A stretch of DNA of 46,236 bases from a virus. The DNA lies in the IMG/VR virus record IMGVR_UViG_3300031669_000052, positions 1 through 46,236 of that record; one strand, given 5' to 3'. Every line of letters begins with the position of its first letter. Positions within the stretch are counted from its first letter, which is position 1. The notes under the pieces are model-generated. The model did not search any database, was not told where the DNA came from, and worked only from the letters and a program-made list of their open reading frames with translations. A program made the position numbers and the translations under genes. This document shows, in pieces, positions 194 to 46,236 of the stretch.

Positions 194-236
194 GCCCTAC
201 TCCAGTACTTACTGAAGCAGGGCTTTCCAGAAAGGG
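194..236 (-). promoter_or_regulatory. Candidate programmed -1 ribosomal frameshift signal
   Basis: On the minus strand the heptamer CCCTTTC (236 to 230) is read in zero frame as C-CCT-TTC, the X-XXY-YYZ form of -1 slippery sites. Six nucleotides (TGGAAA) follow. Then comes an uninterrupted 13-bp stem, GCCCTGCTTCAGT with ACTGGAGTAGGGC (two G-U pairs), closed by the loop AAGT. The zero-frame stop TAA (211-209) lies in the hairpin. The -1 frame is open from the heptamer through the contig junction into the coiled-coil ORF. It has no ATG before the Met-Met about 35 codons later. Frameshifting would give a fusion of about 408 residues. Confidence 0.8.
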
Positions 237-2459: not shown

Positions 2460-3464
2460 TTAGTAAGTAAGAGCTGCAGCAACTCCTAATACAGCACCAG
2501 CTCCAGCTCCCCAAGCACTGCCTGCAGTACTTGCAGCTGTAGTTGAGGTAGCCGCAGTATTAAAATTACTACCTATAGCTGCTCCCATAGCAGCACCACT
2601 AAGAGCTCCCCCTAATACTTTAGAGGCAGTAGAGGCTCCAGCTACGTCTGTCTTCGTATTAATAGCGCCTTGAAGAGCTCCGAGAGCTGCCCTCTCAAAA
2701 TCCAAAACTGTAAATGGCCATAACCTATCCTTAGCAACCATAGAATAATTAGCATCATCTACGTCAATCTTGGTAGAATAGTAGAACTTCATTATCTCAG
2801 AATATACACCTATAACATTCTTATTCCAGTCAAGATGAGCTCTCCATCTACCATCAGCCAGTGAGATCATCTGGTACTTTAAATTAGCACTGAATAAGGA
2901 TAATGCTTTAGTTTTAGCATCTTCTATAATAGCTTTACCTATAACAAATGATGAACTCATTACAGAATTAATATCTCTAGCACCTGTCTGTAATCTAGGA
3001 ACAGAGTTGATAATTATATCTTCATCCAACATAGCAGATTGTGCAGATATTAAATCTTTAACTACTGCAGATTCTACTGTACTTCCCAATATCTCATTCC
3101 ACAAAGCTTCGATATCAAGCCCTGCCATGAACTTCCCGTACATATCATACAAGGAAGGGAAACTACTTATAATATATCCAGCCCCAAAAAATCCATCATC
3201 TACATCTATATTAACATACCCTACAAATGGAGAGTTATTTATAACAAGATTTCTTTTAGCCTGTATTGTAGATAGGAAATTACTATGGGCAGACTCTACA
3301 TAAGGAGCATATCTTACAGTAGTAGTCTGATCACCCCCACTACTACTACTGCCACCTTTACATAAAGCTACCTCTCCTACATACTCTTCATAATTAGAAG
3401 ATACTTCTATATAGGAATTAGTAACCCCATCCCATATAAACTTTATCTCAGAATATATACGCAT
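2460..3464 (-). CDS. Glycine-zipper virion protein, copy 1
   Basis: The 334-residue product is a paralogue of the next gene. It differs by a 40-residue N-terminal extension (MRIYSEIKFIWDG onward) before the Gly/Ser linker and the RYAPYVESAHSNFL block. Its Ala/Gly-rich C-terminus contains GAAMGAAIGSNF and GAGAGAVLGVAAAL, which look like a glycine-zipper hairpin. It sits 2 nt from the GNAT-like gene in the late operon. Role in the virion or in ejection is inferred from position. Confidence 0.75.
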   Translation of the reverse strand: MRIYSEIKFIWDGVTNSYIEVSSNYEEYVGEVALCKGGSSSSGGDQTTTVRYAPYVESAHSNFLSTIQAKRNLVINNSPFVGYVNIDVDDGFFGAGYIISSFPSLYDMYGKFMAGLDIEALWNEILGSTVESAVVKDLISAQSAMLDEDIIINSVPRLQTGARDINSVMSSSFVIGKAIIEDAKTKALSLFSANLKYQMISLADGRWRAHLDWNKNVIGVYSEIMKFYYSTKIDVDDANYSMVAKDRLWPFTVLDFERAALGALQGAINTKTDVAGASTASKVLGGALSGAAMGAAIGSNFNTAATSTTAASTAGSAWGAGAGAVLGVAAALTY

Positions 3465-3919: not shown

Positions 3920-5188
3920 CTATTGTTTATTAAGAACATCCAAATATGCAAAGTTTAATACCTTGCCATATACCTTTATATAATCTATCTTAAAGTCCTC
4001 AAGTACTGGAGCTCTAAGTTTAAACTTAAACTCTATCCCAAAACACGGAAGATGAAAGATTCCATTAGGATTTACTAATACCCAGGGAGTGCTTTGGAAA
4101 GCAGCATCTTTAGAAAGTCTATAATCTATTGAACCTTCTAATAAACCACTAAGATTAGTCCCCACTTCTACATATTTAATACTCTTATTCTTCCTACTAC
4201 TAAGATCAAATATATCTGTACTTATCTCAAAGGTAGGAGTTGTTATTACAATAGGAGATCCTACATACTGAATCCCTCCCTGAGTTTCTACGCTAGTTAT
4301 ATTATTAGGACCTTTCCCAAAACTTTTACTTGAAGGATTATATATATAACCTGTAACCCCGTCACATATATATAAGAGTTTATTTAAACTATCCCAAGAC
4401 AGAGTAAGATCACCCATACTTGATAAGTACTCAGAATACCCTAAATCTTCTGGCCGCATAGTCTCTTCAAACAATGACGATTTTCTAGCTAATTCTCCCA
4501 TAGAAAATAAGTGCCCAGAAGTATCAACAAAGAAGTGTATTGAATTATCTCCATTAACAGCCCCTCTTCCTTTAATACCTATTTTATAGATAGTCTGCAT
4601 TCCATAAGTAACACCAGAAGGAAATAAACTAGAGACTCCATTCTCACCATATACTATAACTTTATTTCCTAATTTCTTAATACTGTAAACCCACCCAGCC
4701 CAATCAAGAGGTCTAGCCCCTGCTATATTATCTTTCCAGATTGTAAAATCAGAACTGCCAATATTAGACCACTTTACCCAATTCTTCTTAACAGTGTCTA
4801 CCCAAATATCTCCTAGACTTCCAATTACTAATTGGTTAAGTCCAGAAGGTATTAAGGAAATTCCTACCGTAAATTTACTAGTAGTTCCAATACCTAATTT
4901 GGAGGTACTACTTGATACAACTCCGTTATAAAATTCTCCGTAAGATACTGCTGCTAAGCCATCAATATCTACATCATACCAATTTACGTTTATAGTAGCG
5001 GTATAATCTATAGGAGCTGCAGGATACTTAGTTATTACTCCTATAGACCTGATACCAGTTTTAGAGGTAGTATTAGGAAAATTATTTCCTGGAGATTCAG
5101 TTACCAATTTTAACGCAAGTGTAGATACAGGGTATGTAGTAAATACCTTCGCTACACCTTTAAATATGGGAGTAGTAACTTGAGACAT
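3920..5188 (-). CDS. Tail nozzle / tubular-type beta-propeller protein
   Basis: The 422-residue product is almost entirely beta-strand, with blade-like repeats such as GSLGDIWVDTVKKNWVKW, DNSIHFFVDTSGHLFSMGE and SLNKLLYICDGVTGYIYNP. A C-terminal strand domain (IEFKFKLRAPVLEDFKIDYI) resembles podoviral nozzle ends. It follows the small tail genes in the late operon. The assignment to the nozzle (P22 gp10 / T7 gp12 role) is by architecture and position, not by recognised motif. The missing N-terminal opening may be supplied by the 691-1176 gene. Confidence 0.6.
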   Translation of the reverse strand: MSQVTTPIFKGVAKVFTTYPVSTLALKLVTESPGNNFPNTTSKTGIRSIGVITKYPAAPIDYTATINVNWYDVDIDGLAAVSYGEFYNGVVSSSTSKLGIGTTSKFTVGISLIPSGLNQLVIGSLGDIWVDTVKKNWVKWSNIGSSDFTIWKDNIAGARPLDWAGWVYSIKKLGNKVIVYGENGVSSLFPSGVTYGMQTIYKIGIKGRGAVNGDNSIHFFVDTSGHLFSMGELARKSSLFEETMRPEDLGYSEYLSSMGDLTLSWDSLNKLLYICDGVTGYIYNPSSKSFGKGPNNITSVETQGGIQYVGSPIVITTPTFEISTDIFDLSSRKNKSIKYVEVGTNLSGLLEGSIDYRLSKDAAFQSTPWVLVNPNGIFHLPCFGIEFKFKLRAPVLEDFKIDYIKVYGKVLNFAYLDVLNKQ

Positions 5189-40671: not shown

Positions 40672-40985
40672 AAGCCCTAGTGGATATGCTTCACTTACTT
40701 CTCTGTCAGATGCCTCATATCTATGACATTATGAAGATTGTTCATAGGGAAGAAGGTAACTGTTACTACTATCTGGAAAATGATATAGCACATGGTGATA
40801 CCCTTCCAGACCACTTGAAGTGGCGTAAGGTAGTAGAAAACTTTAAAGCCTCCACCGGAATGGTTACCGATAAGGAGGCTCTAGAGTTTATTAAAAGAAG
40901 TATAGAATGTACTCAAAATATTAAAAGGTTAGTAGGTACTAATGAAGCTAAAGTAAATTTCATTCGTACTCTTATAGACCTTTAG
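40668..40985 (+). CDS. Last early-arm protein
   Basis: The 105-residue product is helical (MKALVDMLHLLLCQMPHIYD onward) and unrecognised. Its start overlaps the helicase stop and its 3' end overlaps the opposing 1511-residue gene by 14 bp. The forward terminator lies just beyond. Confidence 0.6.
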   Translation: MKALVDMLHLLLCQMPHIYDIMKIVHREEGNCYYYLENDIAHGDTLPDHLKWRKVVENFKASTGMVTDKEALEFIKRSIECTQNIKRLVGTNEAKVNFIRTLIDL

Positions 40986-43900
40986 GTAATTTAAGGGAGG
41001 GGCTTTCTAATTTAAAATTAGGAGTTCCTCCCTTCTTCTTTTTCTTTTCATCTATATAAATCCCCAAGATAATCTGATAAGGATCTCCCCCTCTGCTAGC
41101 AGTCTTAACTCCCTTAAGTATCTGATTAGTCATAGGAATACCCCAAGCATATCCAACCGACTTAGCTATCAACATGCTAGCATTCAACTTCTGACGTTTA
41201 GTCATACTGCCCCAATCCATAAGATCATTAACAGCCTTAGCAGCCTCTGGCACATCCTGTGCAAACTCTCCAATTACCCCACCAAGACTACTTCCATACT
41301 TAGTTGATCCGCCCCATACTGGAAGCTTTTCAGTGAACTCTAACAAAGCACTAAAGGTGGCAGAAGGAATTCCTTTACCTTCATCTCTTGATTCCATAAA
41401 CGCATCAACAGGTGTAGGAAATGGAGAGTTAAGTCCCGCTGCTTTGAACATTTCTCCTATAACCATTACACCTATGCTGTACCTAAAAGCTCTACTTACC
41501 TGTTGAGGTTTAGTTATATCAGGATTTTTAACCCCAGCTATATCCTGTAAGATATAATTAAAATCTGCGATTCCAAAGGTCTGAAGAAGCGTAAGCCATT
41601 TGGTAGCAATGCTGGCCTGAATAGGAGAAACAGCTCCTCTAGTTCCCATACCTTGAGTTCTCTCTACAAGATCATCAGCATAGGCTATAGCATCTTTTTC
41701 CCTTAACTTCAATTTACCTTTAGCATAATGAAATCCAGCATTCCATCCAATCTCAGCTACCACACTATCGATTAGGTCCATAGGGGCAAAAGCCATCTTA
41801 GTGGCTATAGCCTTTCCTCCCTTCAGAGTTCCCAACCTCATCTGTTCTACAAAATCACTCCATATCAATTCAGCTTTACGGATATGAAGAGAGTTGGAAA
41901 GAGTCTGAGCTTCTGACTTACTTCCCTTAAAAGGTTTCTCAATCATATACCTACCTGCCCCATATAAAGATGCAAGTAAACCAAGGTTAGCATATACACC
42001 TATGAGGGCCGTAAATTGTTTGACAAATGTCTGAAGATTCCCACCTATAATTCCCACAACTATATTCTTACTCAACTGTTGAGCCACATTCCTGATGAAT
42101 GGATTCTCAATAGCCATAATAGAAGAGGTTCTATCTATTCCCATTATCTCATCAGACCACTTAAGAAGAAGTTGAGACAGTGCTGGGTTATGATTCTTAA
42201 GTATAACAGTACCTTTACCTCCAGGCTTAGGTAGTGGTACTGTAGCTAATTCCTTAAGTTGTGCAGCAAGAGGCCCAGTATAAATCTCCTCCAGTGTGTA
42301 ATTAAGATAAGACTCCATTACTTTGAATACATCCAACTCAATAGGAATATCTGATACCTTACGTACCTTAGCATGAGGATTAAAAATCCCATGGTAGTCA
42401 CTAGATATGGATGAAATTCTACGAGCGTCCGTAGTGGTGATTCCCTCTAGTACTCCCATCTCTCTGAGAACATTCATCTGTCTCATGAGAGGGAGATAGT
42501 TCTCTTTACCATTTTTATCAAGGAGTCTAGGAATAGGCTTCTGTCCTGTATGAGTACGGACATAGTTAACTCTATCCAACATCTTAGAGGTAGTCTTAGT
42601 CATCCAATTGAATACTTCCATTTGCTTAGCATTCATAATAGGAATATCTTCAGGCTTAATTCCCATAGCAGTGAAGGCTTCCTCTCCACCCTTCATATTT
42701 GCATAAGCAGCCAGAGCTAATCCTTCTCTTTCTTTTTTAGTAAGACTATCCTTCTTAAGTGTAATCTCCTTACCTAAAGAGTTATACTCCAACTCTTTTT
42801 TAGTCTTAAGCTCTCTCCAATCACGATAGATTTCAGAGAGTCCAAATCTTCTAAAGGCATTAATCCTAGTTTCAGTAGCCTGAAGATACCGCTGAATAGT
42901 TCCTGTGTGAACGTTAGTTATTTCCCTCCCACTAACAGGATCAACCTTAACATTCAAGTCTCCCCAGATATTATGTCTAGTAGCATTCATTATCTTAGAA
43001 GATAATACTTGAGTGATAGGAGGCATTACACTTTTAATCTCACCTAACTTATTCCTCTTAACAGTTTGATGTACTACGGGGCCACTTGGATTAAGGATCC
43101 TTTCAGTAATAGGATCTAAACTTCTAAGCGTTTCCTTATCCTTAGGCATTTGTGCTAAGGCTACTTTGAACTGGGCAATAGATTCAGGACTCATACCTAT
43201 CATATCTAAGAATTCATCAACACTCTTCCCTGCTTTCTTAGATGCCTCAACAACTTGTTCCATTTTATCTACCGCTATACGAAGAGGGGTTACATCTACT
43301 GACCCTCTCTCATTACTGAATATACTGAAGAGATCTCTAGTTCCATCCTCACTCATCTCACCATAGTCAAGAGTCTCATCTGAGATCCTATTCCTATGTT
43401 CAGAAGTAAGACTCTCCACTCCATCTTCCCATCCAAGATCTTCAAATCCTTCCAACTCAGGTTCAATAAACCATTCTTTACTCAAGGGATCTTGAATCAA
43501 CTCCCCCTTTTTTCCAGTAGCTTCCTTGTAAGTATTACCCTCAGCCTCAGACTTGAAGGTAGCAAAGTTAGAATCAATGACCGGAAGATCTTTCGGTGTT
43601 ACTGGAACTTCTTTTGCTACGTTGATTTTATCCACATAGCGTTCTTTATACTTCTTAAAAGCATCTGCAATCTCTGGACGGATTGTTTCTTTAGGAGCAT
43701 CTACCTTCTTACTCTCCTTAACTAAAGCCTTAAGATCCTTTTTCAACTGAACCTCTTCAGCCTTAAGAACCTCAGGAGTAGGTTCAATCTCAGACTCTAC
43801 ACCTTTAACTTCTTCAGGTACAAAGTCTACATTAGGACGTACAGGAGCATTAGGATCTTTAATAACAGTCCTATAATATTTATCCCCTACCTTAGCCACC

Positions 43901-45507
43901 CAGAATTCCGAACCCTCTGGCTGCTCAGCTTCTATCTTGGCTTTAGCATAGGGGATTTCACTCATAACTTCAAGATCAGCTTTAAGAGCATCCATCGAAG
44001 CATATTCAGGAATATCAGTTTCAATGAACTTTCCTACTGCATACTTGTCACCTATCTTAATCACTTCATGATCTGCGCCTTTACGTTCAGCAACCTTTTG
44101 TGCTGACTCAGGAGATTCAAATCTTCTCTTATCTCTAATCTCATAACCCTCACCTTTGGCCAGAGATGTATTGTCGAATTCAGAGATTATCTTATCAACA
44201 GTAATCTCAGATTTATTAACTCCGCCTAGTACTTCTAACTTCTTTCCAGTCCTCTTCTCATAAACTCCACCTACCATATTAAATAGCTGTTGAGGAAAGG
44301 ATACCTGCTCGTGTAATTTATTATCCCTAATATTCTTAAACACATCAACCATTATAGCCTGATCTTCAACTGGAATAGAGTTCTCAAAATGTTTAAGAGC
44401 TACATCAGGATTATCCATTTCAGAAGTTAGAATATCAGTGCCTGTAGGTTCTAACTTCTTACCCATTTCTGGAAGATTAATAGGAGTTGCAGTCTCCTCA
44501 ACAGGGGAAATCTCAGGAGTAAGTACAGCATCTCTATCTTTAATAAACTTCTCAATCAAAGCCTGAGACTTCGGACCTACACCTTTCATACTTTTAAAAT
44601 CTACTCCTTTTGCGTCTCCTTCAAGATCACTGATAATCTTAGCAGTTCTATTCAATGCCCCCTTAGCATGGCCCTCTCTCTTAAGAGCCTCAGTCATAAG
44701 ACCTTCAGCTATAGACTGATTACCTTCAAACTTAGTCTTAACATTTGAAGATACAGCTTCCTTAATATTGAAATTCCTCAATGCCTCTAATGCTGCGGAT
44801 GCTACATCAGGAGGTGTATCAACTGGGATAGCCTTCTCAACTTCCTTGAAATCTGAGATAGTTAAAGGTTTACCTTTCTGCAATTTACCAGTAACTAATG
44901 GAAGTCCAAGAAGAAGTGAATTAGTAACATAATGAGATGCTTGAACTCTTTTATCAACCTCTTCTTTTGGAGTGGTAGGATCTGCCAACTGTCTTACAGT
45001 ATTCCCTACTGATCCAAGAAGAGTTCCAAATACTAAATCAATAGGCTTCATTAACAGTTTGCCTGTATCAGTAGTAGGATGATAAGTTCCGGCAGCACTT
45101 ATCTTCTCTGCAACTTTCTGTCCTTCAGCAAAACCTCCAGCTACATCAAACTTATCACCCCTACTTTGAGGAAGCATAGCTGTAAGAGCTGTAGGAGCTG
45201 ATGCAACTTGCCCAAATGGGAAAGCTATAAGTCCAGAGATCATTCCTGCAATAGCTTCAGGAACTCCCAATGCTACATCCTTAGCAGCCCCATATAATCC
45301 AGGTTCTGCAACAGAAGGCTCAGACTTAGTTAGAGATTCCATCAATGCAGGAACTACTGCATCTCCAAAGAGAGTCTTAGGTTGAACTTTAGGAGCCTCA
45401 ACTTTAACTGGAGCTGCAGGAGTAGCAACTATAGGAACTTCATCAAACTGATCAAAAGCATTACTCCCAGTTGCTACAGAGTCAAACTGATCAAACGGGT
45501 TTGCCAT
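40972..45507 (-). CDS. Large candidate ejection / polyvalent virion protein
   Basis: The 1511-residue product starts with the duplicated phrase NPFDQFD / NAFDQFDEVP, an N-terminal signature of large phage virion proteins. It then has a long disordered and helical region, an alpha-rich part from about 860, and hydrophobic helices near 1160-1200 (GVYANLGLLASLYGAG). Size, helix content and position at the end of the late arm fit an internal virion protein such as T7 gp16 or polyvalent DarB-like proteins. No lysozyme or protease motif was seen. It contains palindrome J. Confidence 0.75.
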   Translation of the reverse strand: MANPFDQFDSVATGSNAFDQFDEVPIVATPAAPVKVEAPKVQPKTLFGDAVVPALMESLTKSEPSVAEPGLYGAAKDVALGVPEAIAGMISGLIAFPFGQVASAPTALTAMLPQSRGDKFDVAGGFAEGQKVAEKISAAGTYHPTTDTGKLLMKPIDLVFGTLLGSVGNTVRQLADPTTPKEEVDKRVQASHYVTNSLLLGLPLVTGKLQKGKPLTISDFKEVEKAIPVDTPPDVASAALEALRNFNIKEAVSSNVKTKFEGNQSIAEGLMTEALKREGHAKGALNRTAKIISDLEGDAKGVDFKSMKGVGPKSQALIEKFIKDRDAVLTPEISPVEETATPINLPEMGKKLEPTGTDILTSEMDNPDVALKHFENSIPVEDQAIMVDVFKNIRDNKLHEQVSFPQQLFNMVGGVYEKRTGKKLEVLGGVNKSEITVDKIISEFDNTSLAKGEGYEIRDKRRFESPESAQKVAERKGADHEVIKIGDKYAVGKFIETDIPEYASMDALKADLEVMSEIPYAKAKIEAEQPEGSEFWVAKVGDKYYRTVIKDPNAPVRPNVDFVPEEVKGVESEIEPTPEVLKAEEVQLKKDLKALVKESKKVDAPKETIRPEIADAFKKYKERYVDKINVAKEVPVTPKDLPVIDSNFATFKSEAEGNTYKEATGKKGELIQDPLSKEWFIEPELEGFEDLGWEDGVESLTSEHRNRISDETLDYGEMSEDGTRDLFSIFSNERGSVDVTPLRIAVDKMEQVVEASKKAGKSVDEFLDMIGMSPESIAQFKVALAQMPKDKETLRSLDPITERILNPSGPVVHQTVKRNKLGEIKSVMPPITQVLSSKIMNATRHNIWGDLNVKVDPVSGREITNVHTGTIQRYLQATETRINAFRRFGLSEIYRDWRELKTKKELEYNSLGKEITLKKDSLTKKEREGLALAAYANMKGGEEAFTAMGIKPEDIPIMNAKQMEVFNWMTKTTSKMLDRVNYVRTHTGQKPIPRLLDKNGKENYLPLMRQMNVLREMGVLEGITTTDARRISSISSDYHGIFNPHAKVRKVSDIPIELDVFKVMESYLNYTLEEIYTGPLAAQLKELATVPLPKPGGKGTVILKNHNPALSQLLLKWSDEIMGIDRTSSIMAIENPFIRNVAQQLSKNIVVGIIGGNLQTFVKQFTALIGVYANLGLLASLYGAGRYMIEKPFKGSKSEAQTLSNSLHIRKAELIWSDFVEQMRLGTLKGGKAIATKMAFAPMDLIDSVVAEIGWNAGFHYAKGKLKLREKDAIAYADDLVERTQGMGTRGAVSPIQASIATKWLTLLQTFGIADFNYILQDIAGVKNPDITKPQQVSRAFRYSIGVMVIGEMFKAAGLNSPFPTPVDAFMESRDEGKGIPSATFSALLEFTEKLPVWGGSTKYGSSLGGVIGEFAQDVPEAAKAVNDLMDWGSMTKRQKLNASMLIAKSVGYAWGIPMTNQILKGVKTASRGGDPYQIILGIYIDEKKKKKGGTPNFKLESPSLKLPKGL
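40993..41048 (+). terminator. Forward terminator inside the opposing gene
   Basis: AAGGGAGG (40993-41000) pairs with CCTCCCTT (41027-41034); inside, CTAATTT and AAATTAG pair with a one-base loop. CTTCTTTTTCTTTT follows on the plus strand. It ends the early arm while also encoding the Lys-rich C-terminus of the 1511-residue protein. Confidence 0.85.
43616..43640 (-). repeat. 25-bp near-palindrome, copy J (intragenic)
   Basis: In transcription sense the arms are GCTATGTGGATA and AATCAACGTAGC around a central A. It is the only copy wholly within a gene (residues about 623-631 of the 1511-residue protein) and the only one with GATAAAATC in the core. Confidence 0.75.
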
Positions 45508-46236
45508 TAGATTCCCTCCGGCAAGTATCCATATTTCTTCTTGAATTGATCTTTAAGTGCAGGATTCTTTTTGAGCAAGTCTAATGCCTCTGCAGGAGCT
45601 ACTCCAGTCTTAGGAACTTTAACATATCCACCTTTCTCACCGGTGAAAGGAATCTCCACCCCGCCAATAGTCTTAGGGGAAGTATCAGGAGCTTTAACAT
45701 ACTTATCATTAGGTGAGTGTTTGTTATACAATGCTACATAACTATCAAGTGAGGCAGGATCAAGAGTATTTCCTTTACTATCCTTACCACTTGCGATAGC
45801 AGCACCTATTCCAGCTATCTGAGTATCCATATCTAACTGCTGAGCAGGAGTAACAGGCTTAGGGGCATTAGCATCCCTAGTAGTCTTATCTGATATATCA
45901 GCTCTCCTACTAGCAATATCTGCATTCCTCATAGCCACTGCAAGCAGGCCCTGACTAACTGCAATCTGAGCATCACGGTCAGCTTGACTTGCACGATCTC
46001 TAGCTTCCTGTGCAGTAATTCTTTTCTCTGCAAGTTCCTGCTGAATATTAGCCTTCTTCTCATCCAATGCTAACTTGGCATTAGCTATTACATCTTTCTT
46101 ACCTGCAATATCAGCAGCTTGCTGAGCCATAACTTGATCAGCTTTCATCTTACCTATACTCTGCCCACCTAATAACATCATCTGAATTTCTTCTGGGCCT
46201 AAACCTCTAAGATCTATATCTTGCCCAGCTAGAGCA
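45507..46236 (-). CDS. Coiled-coil virion protein, C-terminal part of the frameshift fusion (runs off contig)
   Basis: From the Met-Met at 46181 the frame has 224 residues with an Ala/Gln/Lys-rich coiled coil (KMKADQVMAQQAADIAGKK ... IQQELAEKRITAQEARDRAS) and a C-terminal domain ending KKYGYLPEGI. On the circular molecule the frame stays open upstream of 46181, through the contig junction, to the slippery site at 230-236, and has no ATG there. It is therefore most likely made as a -1 fusion to the 155-residue ORF. The stop overlaps the large protein's start. Confidence 0.75.
   Translation of the reverse strand, partial: ALAGQDIDLRGLGPEEIQMMLLGGQSIGKMKADQVMAQQAADIAGKKDVIANAKLALDEKKANIQQELAEKRITAQEARDRASQADRDAQIAVSQGLLAVAMRNADIASRRADISDKTTRDANAPKPVTPAQQLDMDTQIAGIGAAIASGKDSKGNTLDPASLDSYVALYNKHSPNDKYVKAPDTSPKTIGGVEIPFTGEKGGYVKVPKTGVAPAEALDLLKKNPALKDQFKKKYGYLPEGI
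46057..46236. repeat. Right copy of 180-bp terminal direct repeat
   Basis: Identical to positions 1-180 except at 46184 (G here, T at 128). It lets the contig ends be joined and the minus-strand virion operon be read through. Confidence 0.95.

Follow-up and report, generated by a model that had tools for sequence, protein, structure and literature searches.

Evidence for a conserved programmed −1 frameshift signal in a likely gp20-type ejection gene of a podovirus clade

How would a ribosome enter a long reading frame that overlaps the end of another ORF and offers no nearby ATG of its own? The question is raised by the DNA of an uncultured podovirus (46,236 nucleotides), i.e., IMG/VR record IMGVR_UViG_3300031669_000052 at its full length (hereafter, the window), where an ORF of 155 residues (ORF1) stops within a hairpin while the −1 frame continues across the contig ends. 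Known phage cases of −1 frameshifting mainly concern tail chaperones and coat proteins (PMC5009743, PMC9965538), and a review of ejection proteins goes without mention of it (PMC8954989). The evidence presented here argues for a programmed −1 frameshift signal that is genuine and conserved, to which a probability of about 0.92 is given; frameshifting itself, as well as its efficiency, we infer from sequence comparison.

The signal and the two reading frames

On the minus strand of the window, to which all coordinates of the locus refer, ORF1 occupies the zero frame at 209-676 and its N-terminal 149 residues would be common to the short product and to a longer fusion. From the letters alone, an earlier note had described a slippery C-CCT-TTC in the correct frame together with a 6-nt spacer and a 13-bp hairpin (two G-U pairs) holding the zero-frame stop, and each of these elements was recovered exactly as claimed. 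The heptamer C_CCT_TTC lies at 230-236, the spacer TGGAAA at 224-229 and the hairpin at 194-223, with its arms (223-211 and 206-194) closing a loop of 4 nt (210-207), a predicted stability of −23.1 kcal/mol and the TAA stop (209-211) within the stem-loop. Up to this stop, the zero-frame sequence reads TC C_CCT_TTC TGG AAA GCC CTG CTT CAG TAA, the zero-frame codons at the heptamer being TCC CCT TTC, i.e., the correct phase for X_XXY_YYZ. Folding of the 56 nt from the heptamer onward gave a z-score of −4.0, with 1 of 200 shuffles folding equally well, and a search of Rfam returned no match. In terms of codon usage in this phage, the codons TCC, GCC and CTG at the signal are rare, making up 8%, 12% and 9% of their respective synonymous sets, and no tRNA gene was found in this phage.

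The −1 frame opens two codons 5′ of the heptamer, after a TGA, and a shift after residue 149 would give access to an extension in two parts, the first running from CCC at 236 off the left contig end (1-236) and the remainder lying at 45507-46235, closing with the gp20-type C-terminal motif ..KDQFKKKYGYLPEGI. Positions 1-180 recur at the other contig end (46057-46236), a 180-bp overlap in which a single position differs (128 T / 46184 G); whichever copy is used, the −1 frame is open across the join as far as 45507. The resulting fusion of 408 residues reads ..AVEQSPFLESPASVSTGVGQ.. over residue 149 (SPF-LES for residues 147-152), the zero-frame product ending in ..SPFWKALLQ. The joining of two ORFs over the contig junction into a protein of about 408 residues, as proposed in the earlier note, is confirmed by this reconstruction, and so is a −1 frame free of ATG for about 35 codons, the first ATG occurring 37 codons past the shift. 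As a side observation, the mismatch between the two repeat copies decides between Lys and Gln in the −1 frame; since Gln is found in all four relatives described below, the left copy (window position 128) is probably an error or a minor variant.

This signal is poorly explained by chance. Of the 46 in-frame X_XXY_YYZ heptamers present in ORFs of 100 codons or more (circularised genome, 46 kb), the one at this site alone has a strong hairpin 4-9 nt away together with a long open −1 frame and a zero-frame stop close by, and synonymous redraws of both overlapping frames produced an equally stable hairpin in only 5 of 20,000 cases. Given the residues Ser-Pro-Phe and the codon usage of this phage, the probability of the heptamer itself is 0.07, and no comparable heptamer-hairpin pair was met at unrelated loci in a scan of 490 kb.

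Conservation of the signal among relatives

The comparison set comprises five sequences, i.e., the window and four IMG/VR contigs from other samples, namely L011 (3300037722_000028), L042 (3300025000_000486), L047 (3300024999_000018) and L048 (3300024999_000153). Relatives were reached through the neighbouring gene of 1511 aa, an 18-base DNA pattern, ORF1 protein patterns and two alignments, L047 and L048 being reached by the ORF1 protein patterns. ORF1 of the window is 48-53% identical to its counterparts in the four contigs (about 53% for L011), and the large terminase of the window has 75% identity with those of L047 and L048. Conservation of heptamer and stem in related phages, put forward in the earlier note as a check, was found in four of four. 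The heptamer C_CCT_TTC is identical in L011, L042 and L047, and is C_CCT_TTT in L048, with a synonymous Phe codon, so that ORF1 ends as SPFWxAL..stop throughout. In all five sequences, the spacer measures 6 nt, the hairpin is stable (−21.6 to −27.4 kcal/mol) and the zero-frame stop follows 25-34 nt past the heptamer start. The heptamer C_CCT_TTC is not known to have been measured in bacteria; C_CCU_UUY appears functional on bacterial ribosomes.

The stem further shows covariation. Across the five sequences, all 45 cells of the 9-bp lower stem are paired, a figure falling to 49-62% when the partner strand is slid, and two pairs of the lower stem have changed on both sides (G-U / U-G / U-A for the one, C-G / U-A for the other); the covariation score of the stem was matched by 14 of 500 shuffles. 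The upper stems vary in sequence and length, yet fold in every case. While the −1 extensions span 256-278 residues, the predicted fusions are of near-constant length, i.e., 408 aa in the window, 418 in L011, 409 in L042, 409 in L047 and 407 in L048. Of note, the five sequences are of unequal independence, with the −1 extension of L042 being 96% alike to that of L047 and 75% to that of L048; because L042, L047 and L048 form one sublineage, the signal would be carried by about three independent lineages.

Upstream of the heptamer, a Shine-Dalgarno(SD)-like element, AAGGGAGGA, is located at 251-259 of the window, 14 nt before the heptamer, as a putative 5′ stimulator. Its predicted anti-SD pairing of −11.3 kcal/mol ranks among the best 2 of 438 ORF1 windows. 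All five sequences have a GGAG or GGAGG at 11-14 nt before the heptamer, with a predicted pairing of −8.4 to −11.3 kcal/mol, and the element is among the strongest anti-SD sites in ORF1 as well as stronger than the start site of the gene itself. It probably belongs to the signal and would act by stimulating the shift. With this putative element included, the order of parts would be that of dnaX of Escherichia coli, namely an internal SD, an X_XXY_YYZ heptamer and a hairpin after a short spacer; dnaX likewise yields from one gene two products with a common N-terminus, as proposed here (PMC5600365, PMC5009743); dnaX differs in its heptamer (A_AAA_AAG), in its frameshift product being the shorter one and in encoding a host protein.

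A further scan with the −1 protein matched only these same contigs, all of which bear the signal, and no close relative lacking it came to light. With ORF1 or the −1 ORF alone as a single protein, IMG/VR gave no match, neither alignment detected a relative among GTDB genomes, and no ORF1 homologue was found in INPHARED phages by protein or DNA search. In 30 IMG/VR records sharing only the first residues of the neighbouring gp16-type protein, there was no match to the ORF1 profile and no comparable signal at the scanned loci. A single uninterrupted frame, anticipated in the earlier note as an observation that would speak against frameshifting if seen in relatives, occurs only in distant podoviruses (Skarpretter, ZP9, 4_4512 and several IMG/VR contigs), in which it is the apparent counterpart of the fusion, without contradicting the frameshift.

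Routes into the −1 frame

In the interval from the zero-frame stop to the first ATG, the substitutions at the first, second and third −1 codon positions number 6, 3 and 10 for the window and L011, 0, 0 and 4 for L042 and L047, 3, 3 and 7 for L042 and L048, and 7, 3 and 12 for L011 and L048. Because they favour the third position, the −1 frame is very likely translated over this stretch. An improbable way of achieving this is for the downstream ORF to encode a separate protein, with an internal start (e.g., the TTG at 188) used by translational coupling or reinitiation after the ORF1 stop. Each phage indeed exhibits a −1 frame TTG with moderate SD pairing, i.e., −5.9 kcal/mol in the window, −5.2 in L011, −8.9 in L042, −9.8 in L047 and −8.4 in L048, but these TTGs sit at non-homologous codons, which makes internal initiation unlikely as the sole route, and neither ATG nor GTG is found near the stop. 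While the earlier note had considered a start with a ribosome site for the downstream ORF as a finding that would count against a fusion, no homologous start codon is common to the five −1 ORFs. Moreover, coding constraint in the −1 frame precedes the first ATG, the ORF1 stop is buried in a strong hairpin, and a separate protein leaves unexplained the in-frame heptamer, the fixed 6-nt spacer and the covarying stem.

Much less credible is a frame broken by a sequencing or assembly indel, or by gene decay, as could be prompted by a site near the contig end and by terminal repeat copies differing at one base; in the four contigs from other samples, the two frames are related in the same way at this codon, the site lies far from the contig end in L011, L047 and L048, and coding constraint bears on both ORFs. 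With the signal conserved in four of four relatives and the fusion lengths constant (407-418 residues), both an error and a pseudogene are ruled out. A change of frame by transcriptional slippage on the C4T3 run is equally rejected, since bacterial slippage uses stretches of some nine A or T residues (PMC5009743), against which this run is short, and since the exact codon phase and the 6-nt spacer favour the ribosome. Programmed −1 frameshifting is retained as the reading of the locus.

A likely gp20-type ejection protein, its proposed isoforms and known systems

Directly downstream of the fusion is a gene of 1511 aa (40972-45507, minus strand) for a gp16-type large ejection protein, which shares 77% identity with the L011 gene in the C-terminal 875 aa and has the SLT-domain gene of L047 and L048 as a homologue. 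An SLT transglycosylase domain stands at the start of the gp16-type protein in L047 and, by sequence, in L042 and L048, a Pfam search with the window and L011 versions finding no domain. The neighbouring genes follow a P22-type order, and ejection (tunnel) proteins of the P22 gp20, Sf6 gp12 and T7 gp15 kind likewise immediately precede the gp16-type gene. At 408 residues, the fusion is close in length to gp20-position genes of other phages, i.e., Skarpretter (414 aa), ZP9 (404), 4_4512 (445) and a Desulfofustis phage (487), and to Sf6 (431) and P22 (471) (PMC8954989). Its last 40 residues or so (..ALDLLKKNPALKDQFKKKYGYLPEGI) have matches at the C-terminal ends of single-frame genes that occupy this position in Skarpretter, Aeromonas phage 4_4512, Shewanella phage ZP9 and IMG/VR contigs such as L018, L013, L012, L038 and L036. 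With the C-terminal part of the window protein, tblastn against 50,697 phages hit DNA transfer proteins with E-values from 1e-4 to 3e-4, and phmmer gave 2.7e-9 to L018 and 9.8e-9 to Skarpretter; the matches in Skarpretter and 4_4512 are annotated as DNA transfer proteins and belong to P22-like modules. L011, L042, L047 and L048 lack the KYGYLPEG-type C-terminus. The closest named phage by terminase (50%), Desulfofustis phage LS06-2018-MD01, has a single ORF of 487 aa at the place of the fusion, and the N-terminus of this gene was the best ORF1 profile match, at a non-significant E-value of 0.36. Neither half of the fusion received a name from Pfam and PHROGs. AlphaFold models were of low confidence, that of the L011 extension (pTM 0.32) suggesting a helix of about 110 residues.

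Judged by position and length and, for the window, by the C-terminal motif, the fusion is probably the gp20-type ejection protein of these phages, the suggestion of an ejection-type gene in the earlier note being borne out by position and motif. A tail-chaperone homologue was considered and rejected in view of the 1511-aa gp16-type protein encoded next and of the P22-type gene order. P22 gp20-type proteins are encoded by single uninterrupted frames, in contrast to the two frames joined by frameshift here, and the frameshift would most likely be a derived feature of the clade.

As a mechanism, it is proposed that ribosomes would start at 676 and translate ORF1 up to C_CCT_TTC, where tRNA-Pro and tRNA-Phe would slip back in tandem by one base, re-pairing from CCT_TTC to CCC_TTT, under stimulation from the hairpin 6 nt downstream and, probably, the SD-like sequence 11-14 nt upstream. 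Most ribosomes would presumably stop at the TAA, releasing the 155-residue protein, and a minority would enter the −1 frame and complete the 408-residue fusion, presumably located in the virion. The short form would then be an extra N-terminal isoform, in a ratio to the long form set by frameshift efficiency. At a guess, it could bind the procapsid or the portal, or serve as a chaperone-like or spacer subunit. In P22, whose virion contains about 30 copies of gp20, procapsids take up N-terminal fragments of both gp20 (1-314) and gp7 (21-154) (PMC8402733), so that packaging of the short form is plausible here. Tentatively, and with some doubt, the short protein might be a virion or procapsid component assembling with the full-length tunnel protein, the frameshift efficiency fixing the number of tunnel subunits packaged. 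Were this ratio model true, it would be the first well-supported example of a phage DNA-ejection machine relying on programmed frameshifting, and would bring a three-part signal around C_CCU_UUY to bacteria.

Several known systems bear comparison. In the tail assembly chaperones G/GT of lambda and in their relatives, a −1 frameshift near the end of a morphogenesis ORF similarly gives a minor, C-terminally extended product, but the phages in question have long tails and virions of lambda do not contain the products (PMC5009743), whereas here a podovirus is concerned, with a gp16-type gene next and a gp20-type C-terminus on the extension. Gene 10 of T7 and T3, Lactobacillus phage A2 and the Kuravirus MCP provide −1 frameshifts in structural genes of dsDNA phages, podoviruses included (PMC5009743, PMC9965538); the proteins concerned are coat proteins, whose C-terminal extensions are accessory, while here the full-length ejection protein would depend on the shift. 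The earlier note had called frameshifting in a podovirus ejection-type gene unusual, which it is, with one earlier suggestion to be acknowledged, i.e., a −1 frameshift leading to an internal virion protein from genes 39/40 of Alteromonas phage H4/4 (PMC5658483). In that case, the zero-frame gene is an endolysin and the “putative slippery sequence” appears without comparative evidence in a genome announcement (PMC5658483). The heptamer of the West Nile virus NS1′ site, C_CCU_UUU, is the same as in L048 and one base from that of the window (PMC11507841), the site differing in its eukaryotic ribosomes, its pseudoknot and its unrelated virus. Within the open-licence literature, and as far as shown, the frameshift signal is new for gp20-type ejection genes. 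A conserved, covarying signal in such a gene adds a gene class to dsDNA phage frameshifting. It would also imply two isoforms of a protein whose virion copy number and assembly are poorly understood, and gene callers will miss or truncate the fusion protein clade-wide.

Besides the fusion, two other features of the window were noted. The gp10-like tail gene is one ORF in L011 and is split in the window, where an N-terminal piece (691-1176), together with 1176-1550, adjoins ORF1 and a C-terminal piece (3920-5188) lies apart; the pieces are split in L042, L047 and L048 too, in a different order. Window genes 1569-2447 and 2460-3464 are tandem paralogues, i.e., a duplication within the ejection/tail module, both of which match a single 281-aa gene of L042, L047 and L048, with identities of 37-39% and 49-53%.
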